A stretch of 37,894 bases of DNA from Lachnospiraceae bacterium. Its GTDB lineage: Bacteria > Bacillota > Clostridia > Lachnospirales > Lachnospiraceae. The stretch covers positions 1-37,894 of the forward strand of contig JAGAPK010000031.1 in NCBI GenBank assembly GCA_017623295.1. Reading direction: 5' to 3'. This document shows, piece after piece, positions 6,093-15,401 of the stretch. Every line of letters starts with the position of its first letter. The stretch's first letter is position 1. Under the pieces are notes generated by a model. The model worked only from the letters and a program-made list of their open reading frames with translations. It was not told the DNA's origin and searched no databases. The translations under genes were made by a program, and so were the position numbers.

Positions 6093-8309
6093 CTATGAAT
6101 TCTTTACCACTAAGTGCAATAATCTGCCTTTGAAATCACCCCAGAGTGCCGGAATATTGATACCTGCATAATGTAATGTTTCTCCGGTATATTCTGTCTG
6201 TTTTAATTCCGGCCATTCCTCTGCGTTTGCAATCACATAGGTTTTCTCCGGTGCAAGTCCCGGGAGACAGATTCTTCTACTGTGATAATTTGGTCTGTTT
6301 AACACTTGAATATAGGTAACAAGTGCTTCGGATTTATCTTTTGCCACAACTTCATAGCAGTCATAGTAATGATTTTCTGCATAAGAAGCAATACGGTAAT
6401 AGTCTCCTTCACGAACAAGGTCGTTGTATTTGTGATACATAGCAACCTGTTTAGGAATCATATTTCTGTCTTCTTCCGGAATCTTAGTTACATCCAATTC
6501 ATAGCCAAAGGTTCCTGCCAATGCTACATAGCCTCTTGTTTCAAAAGGTGTTACCCTGCCTACCGCATGGTTTGGACAATCAGAAACATGCGCTCCCATA
6601 GTAGACAACGGATAAATCATTGCTGTACCGGACTGAATAGACAATCTTTCAATGGCATCCGTATCATCAGAACACCAGATCTGTGGGCTGTAATATAACA
6701 TACCCGGATCAAATCTCGCACCACCACCGGAACAGTTTTCTAACAGCAAGTGCGGAAATTCCTTCGTCAGTCTATCCTGTAACTCATATAAAGCCAGCAC
6801 CTGTCTATGGAATAATTCACCCTGTCTGTCAGCCGGAAGTCCATAACTTCCTATATCAGTCAACTGTCTGTTCATATCCCATTTTACATATTCAATATTT
6901 GCACTATGTAATACACCGGACATGATATCATACACATAATCTCTTACTTCTTTACGAGTCAGATCCAGTACATACTGATTTCTGCAAAGACTTCCTGTTC
7001 TTCCTGGAATCGCAATTGCCCAGTCCTGATGTGCCCTGTATAAATCGGAATCAGGAGAAATCATTTCCGGCTCAAACCAGATACCGAATTTCATGCCAAG
7101 CTTATTCACTTCATCTACGAGATTTTTCAAACCACCGTTCAATTTTTTCTCATTAACAATCCAGTCTCCAAGACTTGTATTATCATCATTACGATAGCCA
7201 AACCAGCCATCATCCATAACTAACATTTCAATACCAAGCTTAGATGCCTGTCTTGCAATATCCAGAAGCTTCTCTGTGTTAAAGTCAAAATAAGTAGCTT
7301 CCCAGTTGTTGATTAAGATAGGACGTTTCTTATCTTTGTATTCACCACGAATCAAATGATTTCTGTATAAGTCATGCAGATTTCTTGTCATGCCGCCAAT
7401 ACCATCTGCAGAATAAACACAAACAACCTCCGGTGCCTGGAAGCTTTCACCTTTTTCCAGTTTCCAGCAGAAGTTCTCCGGATGAATACCCATCAAAGCA
7501 CGAATGGAATCAAACTGTGTCATTTCAATCTGTGCGAGGAAATTACCGGAATATACAAAATGCATTCCGTAAATATCTCCAGTTTCCTGCGTTGTTGATT
7601 TCTTTTTCCATGCCATAAAAGGATGCTCCTGATGGCTGGATTCACCGCGCACAGAAGCTACCCCCTGTTTCCCTTTCATAATCGGACGATACTGCAGTGC
7701 ACGTTCTCTTGCCCAGGAACCATGTAAAGTCATCATTTCATAATCATCATTATCCATGTCGATACATGCGGATAATACTTTGGTAAGATAAATTTCTTCA
7801 TCACTATTGTTGATTACTTTCACACTTCTTGTAACGATATCTACATCTGCAAAAACAGTATAAAGCAATACTACCTGTAATTGCAGAATCTTATCTTCAC
7901 AAACAAGTTCTAAGGTCTTACACTCCTTGTCTGTTCCAAAAGTTGCCGGAAGGCCTTCCAATTCCGGCTTACCATCATAAATTTTATGAGAAACATAAGA
8001 TAAAGATACTCCTGTATGTCCTCCCTTAGTTCTGACGCTCAAAGTACCTTCACGATAATCGCCTAAATCATTTCCTGTATATTCCATTGGAAATGAATCT
8101 AAGAAAGAGGTTCTGTCTCTGTTGTTAAGTGACGGTACAAAAGGCGCCTCCTCTGTACGCATCAGATAAGCCAAATTGTCATCCTCTAACTTCCTTCCAT
8201 AATATACATGTCCAACAAAGTTTTCTTCGTCTACGATTCCGATACAGTAACTTGTATTCGCTGTATCCAGTTTAAAAATTTTGTTCTGTTCGTTGTAAGT
8301 AATGTTCAT
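6093..8309 (-). CDS. Alpha-galactosidase, glycoside hydrolase family 36
   Basis: The enzyme hydrolyses terminal alpha-1,6-galactosyl residues of raffinose-family sugars or galactomannan oligomers, in the cytoplasm since no signal peptide is present. At 738 residues it has the typical length of the AgaB/Aga-type tetrameric enzymes: an N-terminal beta-sandwich, then a TIM barrel with WEATYFDFN and MDDGWFG, then a C-terminal beta domain. By position the nucleophile is Asp478 in VKWDMNR, and the acid/base is Asp548 in WCSDDTDA. CSGGGARFDPGML lies between them. No sugar transporter gene is adjacent; the enzyme may depend on an importer encoded elsewhere. The ATG at 8309 has an AAGGGA-type ribosome binding site. 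Confidence 0.96.
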   Translation of the reverse strand: MNITYNEQNKIFKLDTANTSYCIGIVDEENFVGHVYYGRKLEDDNLAYLMRTEEAPFVPSLNNRDRTSFLDSFPMEYTGNDLGDYREGTLSVRTKGGHTGVSLSYVSHKIYDGKPELEGLPATFGTDKECKTLELVCEDKILQLQVVLLYTVFADVDIVTRSVKVINNSDEEIYLTKVLSACIDMDNDDYEMMTLHGSWARERALQYRPIMKGKQGVASVRGESSHQEHPFMAWKKKSTTQETGDIYGMHFVYSGNFLAQIEMTQFDSIRALMGIHPENFCWKLEKGESFQAPEVVCVYSADGIGGMTRNLHDLYRNHLIRGEYKDKKRPILINNWEATYFDFNTEKLLDIARQASKLGIEMLVMDDGWFGYRNDDNTSLGDWIVNEKKLNGGLKNLVDEVNKLGMKFGIWFEPEMISPDSDLYRAHQDWAIAIPGRTGSLCRNQYVLDLTRKEVRDYVYDIMSGVLHSANIEYVKWDMNRQLTDIGSYGLPADRQGELFHRQVLALYELQDRLTKEFPHLLLENCSGGGARFDPGMLYYSPQIWCSDDTDAIERLSIQSGTAMIYPLSTMGAHVSDCPNHAVGRVTPFETRGYVALAGTFGYELDVTKIPEEDRNMIPKQVAMYHKYNDLVREGDYYRIASYAENHYYDCYEVVAKDKSEALVTYIQVLNRPNYHSRRICLPGLAPEKTYVIANAEEWPELKQTEYTGETLHYAGINIPALWGDFKGRLLHLVVKNS

Positions 8310-11221: not shown

Positions 11222-12967
11222 TTATTCTACGTCCTGCAATGCATCAAAATCTTCTTCGCCTGTACGAACTTTAACGACTTTGGCTACATTGTATACGAAA
11301 ATCTTACCGTCTCCGATATGTCCGGTATAAAGAGCTTTCTTAGCAGCCTCAATAACTGCCTCAACCGGAATCTTACTAACAATGACTTCAACTTTAACCT
11401 TCGGAAGAAGTGTTGCATCCATTTCAACACCACGATATCTGTCGCCAGCACCTTTCTGAACACCACAGCCCATAACCTGTGTTACGGTCATACCGGTTAC
11501 ACCAAGATCGTTCATTGCTTTCTTCAGGTAATCATATCTGGAGAGTTTTGCAACAATAACTACTTTGTGAATACCTGTTGCAGGAACAAGCGACTGTTCT
11601 TCTACTACTTTCACAGCTGCATTTTTCTGTGCCGTTGAAGCTTCTTCGTAAACATCAACACCAAGACTTGTGTTTTCATTTACATCCATTGTCATAGTGT
11701 TAGAAATATCCATAATGCTGAATCCGGAGTAAGCAGATGTAAGACCATGTTCACAGGAATCCAGACCTACGATTTCTTCTTCTTCTGATACACGAAGACC
11801 AACTGTTGCTTTAATAATTAAGAATGCAATTGTAATTGTTACCGCTGTCCAAGCTGCTACTGTTACAAAACCTACCAACTGTAAACCTAACTGTTTAAAT
11901 CCACCACCATAGAACAAACCTACTACTGTATCATTTCCGGGTGCAGATGTTGTTGCAAATAAACCTACTGCGATAGTACCCCAGATACCATTTAAACAGT
12001 GAACTGCTACGGCACCTACCGGATCATCAATATGTAATTTATAATCCAGGAACCATACACCAAATACTACTAACAGACCAGCCACAGCACCAATAACAAT
12101 AGTACCTATTACATCTGTTACATCACAAGAAGCTGTAATAGCAACCAGACCTGCCAAGGAAGCATTCAGACACATGGAAACATCCGGTTTGCCATATTTA
12201 ATCCATGTAAATACCATACATACTACTGTTGCAATTGCCGGAGCAATTGTCGTTGTTACGAATACAGAACCTAACTGTTCTACACTAGTACAAGCTGCAC
12301 CATTGAATCCGTACCAGCCAAGCCATAAGATAAATACACCAAGGCAACCAATTGGAAGGTTATGACCTGGAAATGCATTTACTTTTACCTTGTCACCATC
12401 TTTTGTAAATTTACCAATACGAGGTCCTAACAATTTTGCACCGATTAATGCAGAAATACCGCCTACCATATGAATTGCACAGGAACCGGCGAAATCATGA
12501 AAGCCAATCTGGGATAACCAGCCGCCACCCCAAATCCAGTGTGCTTCAACCGGATAAATCAAAGCGGATATAACACCGGAATAAATACAATAGGATAAAA
12601 ATTTTGTTCTTTCAGCCATTGCACCAGAAACGATAGTTGCTGCTGTTGCACAGAATACAAGGTTGAATACGAAACCAGACCAATCGAACTCTGCATAGTT
12701 TGTGAAGATATCAAAACCGGGTTTACCAATGAAACCAAATAAGTCTTCACCAAGCAGTAACCCAAAACCAATCAGGATGAAAACAACTGTACCGATACAG
12801 AAGTCCATCAAGTTTTTCATAAGGATATTACCTGCGTTTTTTGCTCTGGTGAAACCGGTTTCTACCATTGCGAAACCGGCCTGCATCCAGAAGACCAGCG
12901 CTGCACCAATTAGGAACCAGACACTAAATACTTCGCCACTTACGGCACTCATAATTTCTTCTGTCAT
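11222..12967 (-). CDS. amt: Ammonium transporter fused to a C-terminal PII (GlnB/GlnK-like) domain
   Basis: A 581-residue two-domain protein. Residues 1 to about 405 are a complete Amt channel of about 11 helices. It has the WGGGWLSQIGFHDFAGS segment, the first pore His in AIHMVGG, the second in GAVAVHCLNGIWGT, and the usual C-terminal SEEEEIVGLDSCEHG. A linker of about 60 residues follows. Residues 466-576 are a PII domain with MTVTQV, a T-loop starting VQKGAGDRYRG, LPKVKVEVIV, and the nucleotide-binding GHIGDGKIFVYN and VRTGEED. In free PII proteins Arg47 enters the Amt pore; the equivalent Arg512 is kept. The uridylylation residue Tyr51 is replaced by Met516. Gating by ATP/ADP/2-oxoglutarate in cis is likely. 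The gene is monocistronic with an unusual leader (13112-12968). Such fusions are known in some clostridia, so the architecture is not unique. Confidence 0.97.
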   Translation of the reverse strand: MTEEIMSAVSGEVFSVWFLIGAALVFWMQAGFAMVETGFTRAKNAGNILMKNLMDFCIGTVVFILIGFGLLLGEDLFGFIGKPGFDIFTNYAEFDWSGFVFNLVFCATAATIVSGAMAERTKFLSYCIYSGVISALIYPVEAHWIWGGGWLSQIGFHDFAGSCAIHMVGGISALIGAKLLGPRIGKFTKDGDKVKVNAFPGHNLPIGCLGVFILWLGWYGFNGAACTSVEQLGSVFVTTTIAPAIATVVCMVFTWIKYGKPDVSMCLNASLAGLVAITASCDVTDVIGTIVIGAVAGLLVVFGVWFLDYKLHIDDPVGAVAVHCLNGIWGTIAVGLFATTSAPGNDTVVGLFYGGGFKQLGLQLVGFVTVAAWTAVTITIAFLIIKATVGLRVSEEEEIVGLDSCEHGLTSAYSGFSIMDISNTMTMDVNENTSLGVDVYEEASTAQKNAAVKVVEEQSLVPATGIHKVVIVAKLSRYDYLKKAMNDLGVTGMTVTQVMGCGVQKGAGDRYRGVEMDATLLPKVKVEVIVSKIPVEAVIEAAKKALYTGHIGDGKIFVYNVAKVVKVRTGEEDFDALQDVE

Positions 12968-12987: not shown

Positions 12988-13045
12988 AAAAAATGTGGAT
13001 ACAAGGCTCTTCTTTTTCCCACAAGCGCCATTGCTCCACATCTTT
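12988..13045 (-). terminator. Second stem/T-run in the amt leader, possible attenuator
   Basis: On the minus strand ATGTGGA (13041-13035) pairs with TCCACAT (12999-12993), extendable to about 11 pairs through A/G-T pairs. It is followed by six T ending at 12988, about 20 bases before the amt ATG. A second TGTGG near 13019-13023 could replace the 5' arm. The 3' arm can alternatively pair downstream (CACATT with AATGTG) next to the AGGAGG ribosome binding site. This gives mutually exclusive folds, as expected of a regulated leader. Confidence 0.5.
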
Positions 13046-13105
13046 ATATTATGATATAATTATAACAAAAAAGGTACCATGAGTATCTCTCACAGCACCT
13101 TTGCT
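13024..13105 (-). promoter_or_regulatory. Two matching hexaloop hairpins in the amt leader (ANTAR-target-like)
   Basis: On the minus strand AGC-AAAGGT-GCT (13105-13094) and AGC-AATGGC-GCT (13035-13024) are the same short hairpin with a six-base loop having A at position 1 and G at position 4. These are the conserved loop bases of RNA targets of ANTAR antiterminators. The first hairpin uses the 5' arm of terminator 1 and excludes it; the second lies inside stem 2. The 58-base separation is larger than in described dual-hexaloop elements, so assignment to that class is tentative. Confidence 0.45.
13067..13102 (-). terminator. First intrinsic terminator in the amt leader
   Basis: A continuous 14-pair stem including three G-U pairs (13102-13089 with 13083-13070), loop AGATA, then T through 13067. 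It starts about 10 bases after the predicted transcription start and about 100 bases before the amt ATG. Transcripts must therefore read through it to express amt. No gene upstream on this strand needs it, which argues for attenuation. Confidence 0.65.
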
Positions 13106-13118
13106 TGTTATGTTTTGG

Positions 13119-13147
13119 ATTGTATCACTCTTAAAAAACATTGTCAA
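13119..13147 (-). promoter_or_regulatory. Near-consensus promoter of amt
   Basis: -35 TTGACA (13142-13147), 17-base spacer, -10 TACAAT (13119-13124) on the minus strand. Initiation near 13112 gives a leader of about 145 bases that contains both stem/T-run structures. Confidence 0.75.
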
Positions 13148-13241
13148 TATAATTTTTTAGAATTTTTTTATAAAATGTTTCGCTTTTTTTCGTAAATGTG
13201 TTAAAATGGAAAAGGGTATTAGTGAAGGAGGGTTATTAATT

Positions 13242-15401
13242 ATGATGAAACAGAAAGAAAAGCAAACGCAAGAAAAAACAAAAAAGCAAGAAAAAGCAAA
13301 AAGGCAAAAAACAGAAAAACAAAAAACTCCTAAGTCAGTCAATAATAAAAAAGAGAAATCTAAAAATACGATTTCACTTTTTCATCAACTTCGTACGAAA
13401 CTGATTATTTCCTTTATGGTTCCTGTTTGTTGTATTGTAATACTTGGATTTGTTTCTTATCAGAAAGCATATAGTGCTATTATTACAAGTTATGAAACAT
13501 CCGCTTCACAGACAATGAATATGATGAATCAGTATTTAACTCTGGCGATTGATACCATTCGTTCTACCTACAAATCCTATCTGAATGAAGATGAGGTTAT
13601 AAAATATTTAAAAGGTATCTATGCAATTGATCCTGCTAAACAGACAAATACTAAGAAAAGTTATGTATCTACCTTAAAGACAAGTATTAATACAGATTCC
13701 CTTGTTTCTAATATTTATCTGTTTGCCGATGATGTACCTGCAATTTCTACCGGAACAATTGAGGAAGCAAAACCTTATACCGCCTATACACAGACAGAAG
13801 AAGGCGCCATCATCAAAGCCGATAAGTATAATTATTATCTTTTTGGTAATCAATCAGAAGCAAATACAATATTTACTACGGATAGCTCCATATATGCACT
13901 TCGTCTGGCGCGTGGATACAGTCAGGGCAGTGCTGCTATGGTTATTGATATTAACAAAGAATCTGTTATCAATACATTATCGTCTATCGATGTTGGCGAA
14001 GGCGGTCATGTCGCACTGGTTACTTTTGACGGAACAGAATTTTATGCAGACGGAACTTCCAAAAATCAGGATACTATTTTTACAAGTTCCACTTTCTATC
14101 AGGATGCAATAGCTAATGAAGAAGCAAGTGGCATGGAATATGTTACATATGATGGACAGCAATACTTATTCCTTTATTCCAAAATTGTAGAATACAATGC
14201 AATGCTCTGTACTTTGATTCCACAATCCGTAATTGTAGCGCAGGCATCCAGCATTAAAACCATTACTGTTTTACTGGTTGTTATAGCAGTTATTATTGCA
14301 GCCATATTAGGAAGTGTATTATCAAATTATATTAACAAAAATATTAAGTACATTCTGAAACAACTGAAAAAGGTTTCGGATGGTGATTTAACTACTCACC
14401 TCACAGTAAAAAGCAAAGGCGAATTCCGTCTGCTGGGTGATGGCGTAAATACCATGATTACCAATATGAAGAATCTGATTACCAATGTAACGGCTGCCAG
14501 TGATGCACTGAATCACACTGCTTTACAGGTTGCAGAATCTGCCGATACCTTCGTTAGCACTTCACGGGATATTCAGGGTGCTATTTCAGAAATTGAATCC
14601 GGCGTTATCAATCTGGATGAAAATTCCGCTGATTGTATGACACAGATGGATACCTTATCGGGTAAAATCGGTGATGTTACAACCGGAACAAATGAAATCG
14701 GTACTTTAACGGATGCGGCAAGCAGTTCCATTACAGAAGGTATCACTTCTATGGACAGACTGACCGAAAGTGCAAAACAGACAAGTGAAAAAACGGAAAA
14801 TGTTATTCTGGCGATTGAAGCCTTATCAGAGAAATCCCGTTCCATTGGACAGATTGTTGAAAGTATCAATCACATTGCCAAAGAAACAAACCTTCTTTCT
14901 CTGAATGCTTCCATCGAAGCTGCAAGAGCCGGAGAAGCCGGAAGAGGATTTGCCGTTGTTGCAGAGCAGATTCGCGAACTTGCTGACCAGTCAGCCGCCT
15001 CTGCCGGACAGATTCAGAAAATTATTGAAGATATTATTTCCAATACCTCGGAAGTTGTTTCCATTGCCCAAGAAGCTGCTGATACAGTAACTTCTCAGGA
15101 AGGCGCAATGCAGCAGACCGCAGATGCTTTCCAGACAATGGATACCCATATTCACTCCTTAATTTCTTCCCTTTCACAGATTACGTTGAATGTGGAGAAT
15201 ATGGAACAGGCAAGAAGCGCAACCTTAAATGCAATCGAAAGCATTTCTTCTGTTTCCGCACAAACTGCTGCCGGCTCCAAAAATGTGCAGACTACTGTTA
15301 ATGCACAGCAAGCTGCCATCTCTACTTTGGAAGAAGCAGCTGACAGCGTAAGAACAAAAGCAGAAGAACTTGCTGAACTTCTTCGTCAGTTTATTATTTA
15401 A
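13242..15401 (+). CDS. Methyl-accepting chemotaxis protein
   Basis: A transmembrane chemoreceptor of 719 residues that signals through CheA/CheW. It has a strongly basic, Lys/Gln-rich cytoplasmic N-terminal tail (about residues 1-50). TM1 follows ([17 protein letters not shown], about 53-73), then an extracellular sensor region of about 265 residues, probably Cache-like. Next come TM2 ([16 protein letters not shown], about 341-363), a HAMP domain, and a long coiled-coil signalling domain. The conserved tip includes [20 protein letters not shown] and [11 protein letters not shown]. The ATG pair at 13242/13245 follows GAAGGAGGG; an earlier in-frame ATG at 13206 has no ribosome binding site. The ligand is unknown. 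No other motility genes are in the window. It is transcribed toward the GNAT gene. Confidence 0.95.

Follow-up and report, generated by a model that had tools for sequence, protein, structure and literature searches.

Putative ANTAR-controlled attenuators with single hexaloops at an amt-PII gene and other nitrogen genes of a Lachnospiraceae bacterium

ANTAR targets and the amt-PII leader

RNA targets of ANTAR-domain proteins are, by definition, two hairpins with A1/G4 hexaloops joined by a linker (PMC3369931, PMC8164766). In work on EutV, both hairpins and a short linker were reported to be necessary (PMC3369931, PMC8934654); the linkers of the eut leaders measure 5 to 12 nucleotides (nt), a linker of 14 nt does not work with EutV (PMC3369931), and lengthening the linker by 20 nt abolishes antitermination by EutV, though one dimer contacts one hexaloop (PMC8934654). 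Searches for ANTAR targets demand dual stem-loops with linkers of 2 to 25 nt (PMC8164766). The EutV structure paper leaves single-hexaloop sites as a possibility (PMC8934654), and the binding of NasR to a single hairpin is given as weak, at about 12 µM (PMC7496416). Surveyed targets include genes for PII, ammonium transporters, and glutamine synthase, and the ANTAR regulon of Desulfotomaculum acetoxidans is described as 13 attenuators in 6 operons (PMC3369931). In the AmiC-AmiR and NasS-NasT systems, the ANTAR protein is sequestered by a sensor (PMC8934654, PMC3795266). Among open-licence papers, only PMC8934654 uses "single hexaloop" together with ANTAR, and none describes an ANTAR nitrogen regulon of Lachnospiraceae or Clostridia; such a regulon may be listed in the supplementary tables of PMC3369931.

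The leader examined here was found on the minus strand of the window, the whole 37,894-nt stretch of DNA that was analyzed. The presumed controlled gene (11222..12967, minus strand) encodes an ammonium transporter of 581 amino acids with a fused C-terminal PII domain (TIGR00836 amt, PF00909, and PF00543, all above cutoffs). An initial annotation of this DNA had described a TTGACA/TACAAT promoter followed by two hexaloops, each within a stem with a T run, and these elements were recovered in sequence and fold. The sigma-70-type promoter (13119..13147, minus strand) has TTGACA at 13147-13142 and TACAAT at 13124-13119 with a 17-nt spacer, and its position predicts a transcription start at about 13111-13113. 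Hexaloop hairpin 1 (AGC-AAAGGT-GCT; 13094..13105, minus strand), a putative ANTAR site with A1, G4, and a C:G closing pair, has its A1 16 nt past the -10 box. Terminator 1 (13067..13102, minus strand) consists of a 14-pair stem (13102-13089 with 13083-13070, G.U pairs counted) and a run of six T (13072-13067). Because its 5' arm starts at loop base A1 of hairpin 1, the two structures are mutually exclusive. Hexaloop hairpin 2 (AGC-AATGGC-GCT; 13024..13035, minus strand) sits within the 5' arm of terminator 2 (12988..13044, minus strand), an interrupted stem, AAAGATGTGGAGCAATGG...CCTTGTATCCACATT, that is followed by six T (12993-12988). The second hexaloop had been placed about 60 bases beyond the first; the measured distance from A1 to A1 is 70 nt. 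The CACATT/AATGTG fold proposed for the ribosome binding site does exist in this leader, but such a 5-nt pair across the second T run was found in only 5 of 26 tandem genus leaders, the window's counted, and the fold was rejected as unconserved.

The leader folds to -52.5 kcal/mol, compared with -28.4 kcal/mol in dinucleotide shuffles (z, -6.4; 0 of 200 shuffles as low). Isolated 12-base hexaloop hairpins are weak, at -1.1 kcal/mol each, while the 72-nt stretches holding unit 1 and unit 2 (a unit being one hexaloop with its terminator) fold to -23.1 and -19.5 kcal/mol, respectively; keeping the hairpin formed would therefore require a factor. In the 2.78-Mb genome, the exact motif AGCAAWGGNGCT has 6 occurrences, and the pattern read backwards has none; three of the six are leader sites (two at amt and one at pyrG), and the other three appear coding-like by eye. 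The initial annotation had suggested a search with the ANTAR RNA covariance model; with Rfam 15 there were 0 matches in the window at gathering scores, and the leader gave sub-threshold matches only. Divergent to amt, at 13206-15401 on the plus strand, lies a gene whose first listed start and the amt -35 box are about 60 bp apart and whose product, judged from its sequence, presumably resembles a methyl-accepting chemotaxis receptor.

With the eut leaders of Enterococcus faecalis (EutV), nasF of Klebsiella oxytoca (NasR), and amiE of Pseudomonas aeruginosa (AmiR), the units share an A1/G4 hexaloop whose stem, 3 bp or longer, is closed by a C:G pair, a hairpin that overlaps and excludes an intrinsic terminator, an ANTAR gene in the same genome, and an association with nitrogen genes. 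They differ in that each terminator has a single hexaloop where these systems have two with a linker of 2 to 25 nt, the hairpin lies a few bases from the 5' end of the RNA, and complete units stand in tandem at amt. D. acetoxidans likewise has several attenuators per operon, but those were predicted with a dual-hairpin model (PMC3369931), whereas the units here are single hairpins.

Conservation of the unit and its candidate regulon

Two sets of amt leaders were compared, from which fragmentary amt matches were excluded and in which some leaders are near-duplicates. The genus sample comprised 60 genomes (own included), 51 of which had an amt match, and 49 amt leaders were taken. The second sample drew on contigs of named records, among them Lachnospiraceae, Butyrivibrio, Roseburia, and Oribacterium, from which the best 80 of 587 matches supplied 80 leaders. 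When scanned strictly, 45 of the 49 genus leaders showed one or more units, three showed none, and one was too short; of the named leaders (again the best 80 of 587), 55 showed units and 25 did not. Among hexaloops overlapped by a terminator in both sets (49 genus leaders and the best 80 of 587 named leaders), the A1/G4 class numbered 120, and each of 14 other classes numbered at most 13. A C:G closing pair was present in 118 of the 122 units from these same leaders, though the scan did not demand it; the four A1/G4 hairpins without C:G are spurious, and one of them lies upstream in the window's own leader. The window hairpins have both the A1/G4 hexanucleotide loop, carried by 3 bp or more of stem, and the terminal C:G pair, and C:G, A1, and G4 constitute the consensus obtained by SELEX for NasR (PMC7496416). 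Unit 2 of the window was overlooked by the strict scan because the stem of terminator 2 is interrupted, and the covariance model described below overlooked it as well.

Covariation among related amt leaders, which the initial annotation had suggested looking for, was found in both hairpin and terminator. For 97 distinct hairpins chosen solely on C:G, A1, G4, and a terminator (genus leaders plus the best 80 of 587 named), pair 2 formed in 96 (shuffle mean, 77; maximum, 85), pair 3 in 92 (mean, 56; maximum, 68), and pair 4 in 71 (mean, 50; maximum, 62); pairs 5 and 6 were no commoner than their shuffle maxima. In the loops of these hairpins, positions 3 and 6 can be any of the four bases, and position 5 is G or A. 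In 53 hairpins, the best terminator stem begins at or past A1 and so leaves the 5' strand of the hairpin unconstrained by it. All 53 have both pair 2 and pair 3 (shuffle means, 41 and 32), and 41 have pair 4 (shuffle mean, 27). An alignment of 58 units gave 42 double-changed cells in the hairpin versus 12.9 when shuffled, and 125 in the terminator versus 35.1; this alignment was preselected for stems of at least 3 bp, and the tests on 97 and 53 hairpins are less biased. All of these tests are based mainly on hairpins of the unit 1 type, and the shuffles ignore relatedness. Both the predicted structures and the covariation place the putative antiterminator hairpin across an intrinsic terminator.

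R1, a covariance model of the unit, derives from amt leaders and therefore favors units resembling them. It matches unit 1 of the window (13108-13066) at 45 bits, the highest of the amt, pyrG (42.8 bits), glnA-ANTAR operon (25.5 bits), and glnN (24.5 bits) matches in the own genome, whose targets were named by comparison with NCBIfam and Pfam. The unit before glnN (contig C28, 26473-26516) has the loop GAAGGC, with G1 in place of A1 and G4 kept. Similar G1 loops are visible by eye in four amt leaders of relatives (L088, L091, L115, and L146). Four further R1 rows from three places in the own genome (C24, C68, and C60; 23 to 28 bits) were set aside, as no proper hexaloop stem could be seen by eye, and two of them score above the glnA and glnN matches. 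Since the latter are weak and outscored, they rest also on their position before genes and, in the case of glnA, on the recurrence of the leader unit (ACAAAGGCGT) in 2 of 2 other genus genomes looked at.

Within the genus, R1 matches at an E value of ≤0.001 were found in 52 of 60 genomes. Thirty of about 40 non-amt places were examined, and 20 of these precede genes for glnN (3), an ATP-grasp-type protein (8), pyrG (3), a GlnQ-like ABC ATPase (3), acetolactate synthase (2), or purF (1). One member of each target kind, the ATP-grasp type excepted, was compared with NCBIfam or Pfam, and the others were assigned by similarity or by eye; the GlnQ-like ATPases fall below the GlnQ cutoff. The ATP-grasp-type gene, which outnumbers every other target at the 30 non-amt places examined, has no NCBIfam match, and we take its product to be a circularly permuted ATP-grasp protein (L241 to L243, L246, L249, L250, L256, and L257). 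Two more of the 30 places presumably precede cytosine-deaminase-type and gamma-glutamyl-hydrolase-type genes, and the remaining 8 could not be assigned to such a gene. One unit-like match in another genus genome (L234 in G023) precedes what by eye is a homologue of the alpha-galactosidase-like gene of the window (6093-8309), which lies about 3 kb from amt; at the window's own copy of this gene, R1 found no unit.

Beyond the genus, 291 genomes of the class Clostridia were searched. A downstream protein was obtained for 26 of 29 loci, comprising glnN (13), asnA (5), amt (5), and three others, two of which (L220 and L232) came from misplaced motifs. In the six listed class regions with an ANTAR gene, this gene comes immediately after a glnA-type gene, and units are found before glnN or else before asnA with glnN alongside. 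The gene after this glnA-ANTAR pair is, by our own assignment, carA (L264), pyrG (L265 and L269), or dapF (L268), and a second unit in L272 precedes what we take to be a gltB-like gene. In the own genome, pyrG lies away from glnA-ANTAR and bears its own unit, and in L265 and L269 pyrG follows glnA-ANTAR. Reiterative control of the CTP type, which is known for pyrG in Bacillus subtilis, was considered on account of the pyrG target and rejected because, by eye, the start sequences differ between genes.

The ANTAR gene and the position of the hexaloop

An ANTAR regulator had been predicted beside glnA, and the own genome contains a single ANTAR gene (PF03861; E value, 3e-17) directly downstream of glnA. 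Its product scores 62.5 bits, compared with a curated PF03861 cutoff of 27.3. Exactly one ANTAR gene is present in 56 of the 60 genus genomes (own included), and in 30 of 30 loci examined (of the 56), the ANTAR gene is preceded by glnA in the same orientation, the aligned parts being 26 to 362 nt apart. The ANTAR protein aligns with EutV (6wsh), NasR (4akk), AmiR (1qo0), and Rv1626 (1s8n). Assuming that the PDB chain and the paper number EutV with a shift of two residues, the Met plug of EutV, Met172, corresponds to M163, a Met in all 30 aligned genus proteins. The residue that stacks on G4 in EutV, Tyr164, corresponds to H155; this position is His, Tyr, or Phe across the genus and His in AmiR. 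The RNA-contact residues K143 and K147 of EutV are not kept in the own protein.

In the 30 genus proteins, Gly, Ser, or Ala occupies the receiver position at which a phosphorylated Asp is expected; among 8 class proteins, one has an Asp there. The phmmer alignment to EutV spans residues 94 to 177 only, and the site was placed by the usual receiver pattern, which we take to locate the phospho-accepting Asp. The receiver-like domain thus appears to be without the phosphorylation aspartate of an EutV-type phosphorylated response regulator, and phosphorylation is unlikely. Together with the constant glnA-ANTAR pairing, this suggests control by partner binding, as in AmiC-AmiR, and such a partner, perhaps the glutamine synthetase encoded next to it, probably conveys the signal to the ANTAR protein. 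The neighbor here is a glutamine synthetase or a GS-like protein, which belongs to a different family from AmiC and NasS. As with AmiR, the ANTAR protein has a receiver unable to accept phosphate and is encoded beside a possible sensor (PMC8934654). All six sampled class glnA-type partners fall below the NCBIfam GlnA cutoff, and the own GlnA is well above it. Two of the six, GS-like proteins encoded directly upstream of ANTAR genes (L268, 8165-9448; L269, 2770-3972), have changes in conserved GS motifs: the NGSGMH region reads AGSGMS in L268, and L269 has RMEF at the ECEF glutamate site. Given the roles that we assume for these motifs, the two proteins are consistent with dedicated sensors derived from GS and are offered as candidates, a lead to follow.

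The co-occurrence of units and ANTAR genes was examined in the 291 Clostridia genomes, with PF03861 representing ANTAR. ANTAR was found at an E value of ≤0.001 in 145 genomes (143 above the cutoff), and R1 matches at an E value of ≤1e-4 were found in 90. R1-positive genomes with and without ANTAR numbered 22 and 0 at 42 bits or more, 29 and 2 at 40, 47 and 5 at 37, 62 and 8 at 35, and 70 and 20 at 31 (Fisher p as low as 1e-14, without correction for phylogeny). Misses mean little in this search, which was restricted to 21 first-look candidates per genome with strict filters and from which the own glnA and glnN units are absent, their E values being above the 1e-4 limit; 75 ANTAR-positive genomes gave no R1 match at an E value of ≤1e-4. 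The five ANTAR-less exceptions at 37 bits belong, as checked by hand, to families that also have ANTAR-positive members.

It is conceivable, if quite improbable, that the attenuator is real and its hexaloop is read by some other RNA-binding protein or a small ligand, with ANTAR genes co-occurring merely by way of nitrogen-metabolizing Clostridia. This would accommodate the loss of the basic contact residues of EutV, the 5 of 52 genomes that have a match of at least 37 bits and no ANTAR, and three genus genomes (G004, G022, and G035; one of them 98% complete) in which units are present and an ANTAR gene was not detected, a full-length ANTAR protein search, run without a positive control, finding none either. 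The best GlnA match in these three genomes is only 44 to 48% identical, compared with 88 to 94% in two control genomes, and the glnA-ANTAR locus has therefore been lost or is unassembled there. Against another reader stand the A1/G4 loop and C:G closing pair, which match the ANTAR SELEX consensus (PMC7496416), the failure to find units of at least 42 bits in the 146 Clostridia without ANTAR, and, in at least 23 genomes, the proximity of a unit to an ANTAR gene (within 12 kb). The nitrogen-linked ANTAR antitermination proposed in the initial annotation is strongly supported by the A1/G4 and C:G hexaloops, covariation, the ANTAR gene beside glnA, the nitrogen targets, and this co-occurrence.

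The frame of paired, unusually widely spaced hexaloops in which that proposal was put did not fare as well. In a relaxed count (C:G, pairs 2 and 3, A1 or G1, and G4, with no T run demanded), 19 of 48 genus leaders show exactly one hexaloop, 27 show two or more, and 2 show none; the pair frame is unsupported because 19 of the 48 have one only. With a T run demanded, 26 of the 48 have two and 22 have at most one (none in 5 of the 22, 3 of which do have a unit). Tandem genus leaders have their hexaloops 46 to 129 nt apart with a terminator in between, so that two hairpins with a short linker (5 to 12 nt in eut, 2 to 25 nt in searches) were not found. Among the 104 first units of the genus leaders and the best 80 of 587 named leaders, a promoter scoring at least 9 of 12 was found for 84; the distance from the -10 box to the first A1 is 14 to 16 nt in 65 of these 84 and 10 to 20 nt in 81, and 78 of 2,540 random positions in the same leaders fall at 10 to 20 nt past a -10 box. 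In the class-wide loci, after three contig-end loci had been dropped, this distance is 11 to 16 nt in 20 of 26. With a start about 7 nt past the -10 box, A1 lies near +8 of the RNA, and an upstream partner hairpin therefore has no room. Each hexaloop with its terminator looks like a complete element, two of which stand in series at amt here.

A classical dual-hexaloop target, in which hexaloop 1 would be the recruitment hairpin P1 and hexaloop 2 the antiterminator P2 with a long linker between them, is accordingly a very improbable reading, even with two hexaloops in the window leader and two or more in 27 of 48 genus leaders. It is opposed by the 19 single-hexaloop leaders, by the first hexaloop's possession of a terminator, and by a spacing of 46 to 129 nt where EutV is reported to fail with a 14-nt linker (PMC3369931) or with 20 nt added (PMC8934654). 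The units before glnN, asnA, and pyrG that were looked at are, by eye, mostly promoter-proximal singles. Second A1/G4 hexaloops were sought from -45 to +60 nt around 130 units; 23 were found downstream and 8 upstream, part of which must be tandem copies, and A1/G4 was not the commonest class there. In one leader (L109), an apparent first hexaloop was rejected as a P1 hairpin, since by eye it lies inside the promoter spacer. That the units are ordinary, unregulated start-proximal terminators or 5' stability stem-loops with the hexaloop as a by-product of the terminator is the least credible reading: hexaloop bases do double as terminator bases, and part of their conservation is therefore shared, but pairs 2 and 3 form in every one of the 53 hairpins whose 5' strand is not part of the best terminator stem, and A1/G4 enrichment, the near-fixed promoter distance, and the nitrogen target genes all speak against it.

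Proposed mechanism and implications

We consider it likely that the units are ANTAR-controlled transcription attenuators for nitrogen genes, of a single-hexaloop, 5'-terminal type, and duplicated at amt here. Comparison among genomes supports the exclusive structures, the loop identities, the promoter position, the target genes, and the ANTAR link, and from these we infer ANTAR binding, termination, and activation under nitrogen limitation. A response to nitrogen status is suggested because the target genes are nitrogen genes.

In the proposed mechanism, the 5' arm with the hexaloop bases would by default fold into the terminator, and transcription would end after about 45 nt at terminator 1 or about 125 nt at terminator 2. 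Under nitrogen limitation, the active ANTAR protein encoded directly downstream of glnA would bind the hexaloop hairpin, which would form first. The bound hairpin would hold bases that the terminator needs, and the polymerase would read into amt-PII. At amt, the two units in series would act as a double checkpoint.

A broader reading, which we put forward only tentatively, is that Clostridia possess a separate class of ANTAR system in which one hexaloop at the start of the transcript is sufficient, and that the dual-hexaloop rule is not general. The signal would come from the GS-type protein encoded just before ANTAR, in some lineages a GS without catalytic residues that would serve as a dedicated nitrogen sensor, and the whole might constitute the master nitrogen regulon (amt, glnA, glnN, asnA, pyrG, purF, and perhaps gltB) of many gut anaerobes.

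The units provide a natural test of whether one hexaloop suffices for ANTAR antitermination, the question left by the EutV structure paper (PMC8934654). Searches for ANTAR targets that require two hairpins could miss a single-hexaloop class. On our reading, Lachnospiraceae and other Clostridia, which are major bacteria of the gut and rumen, would have a nitrogen regulon of this type.
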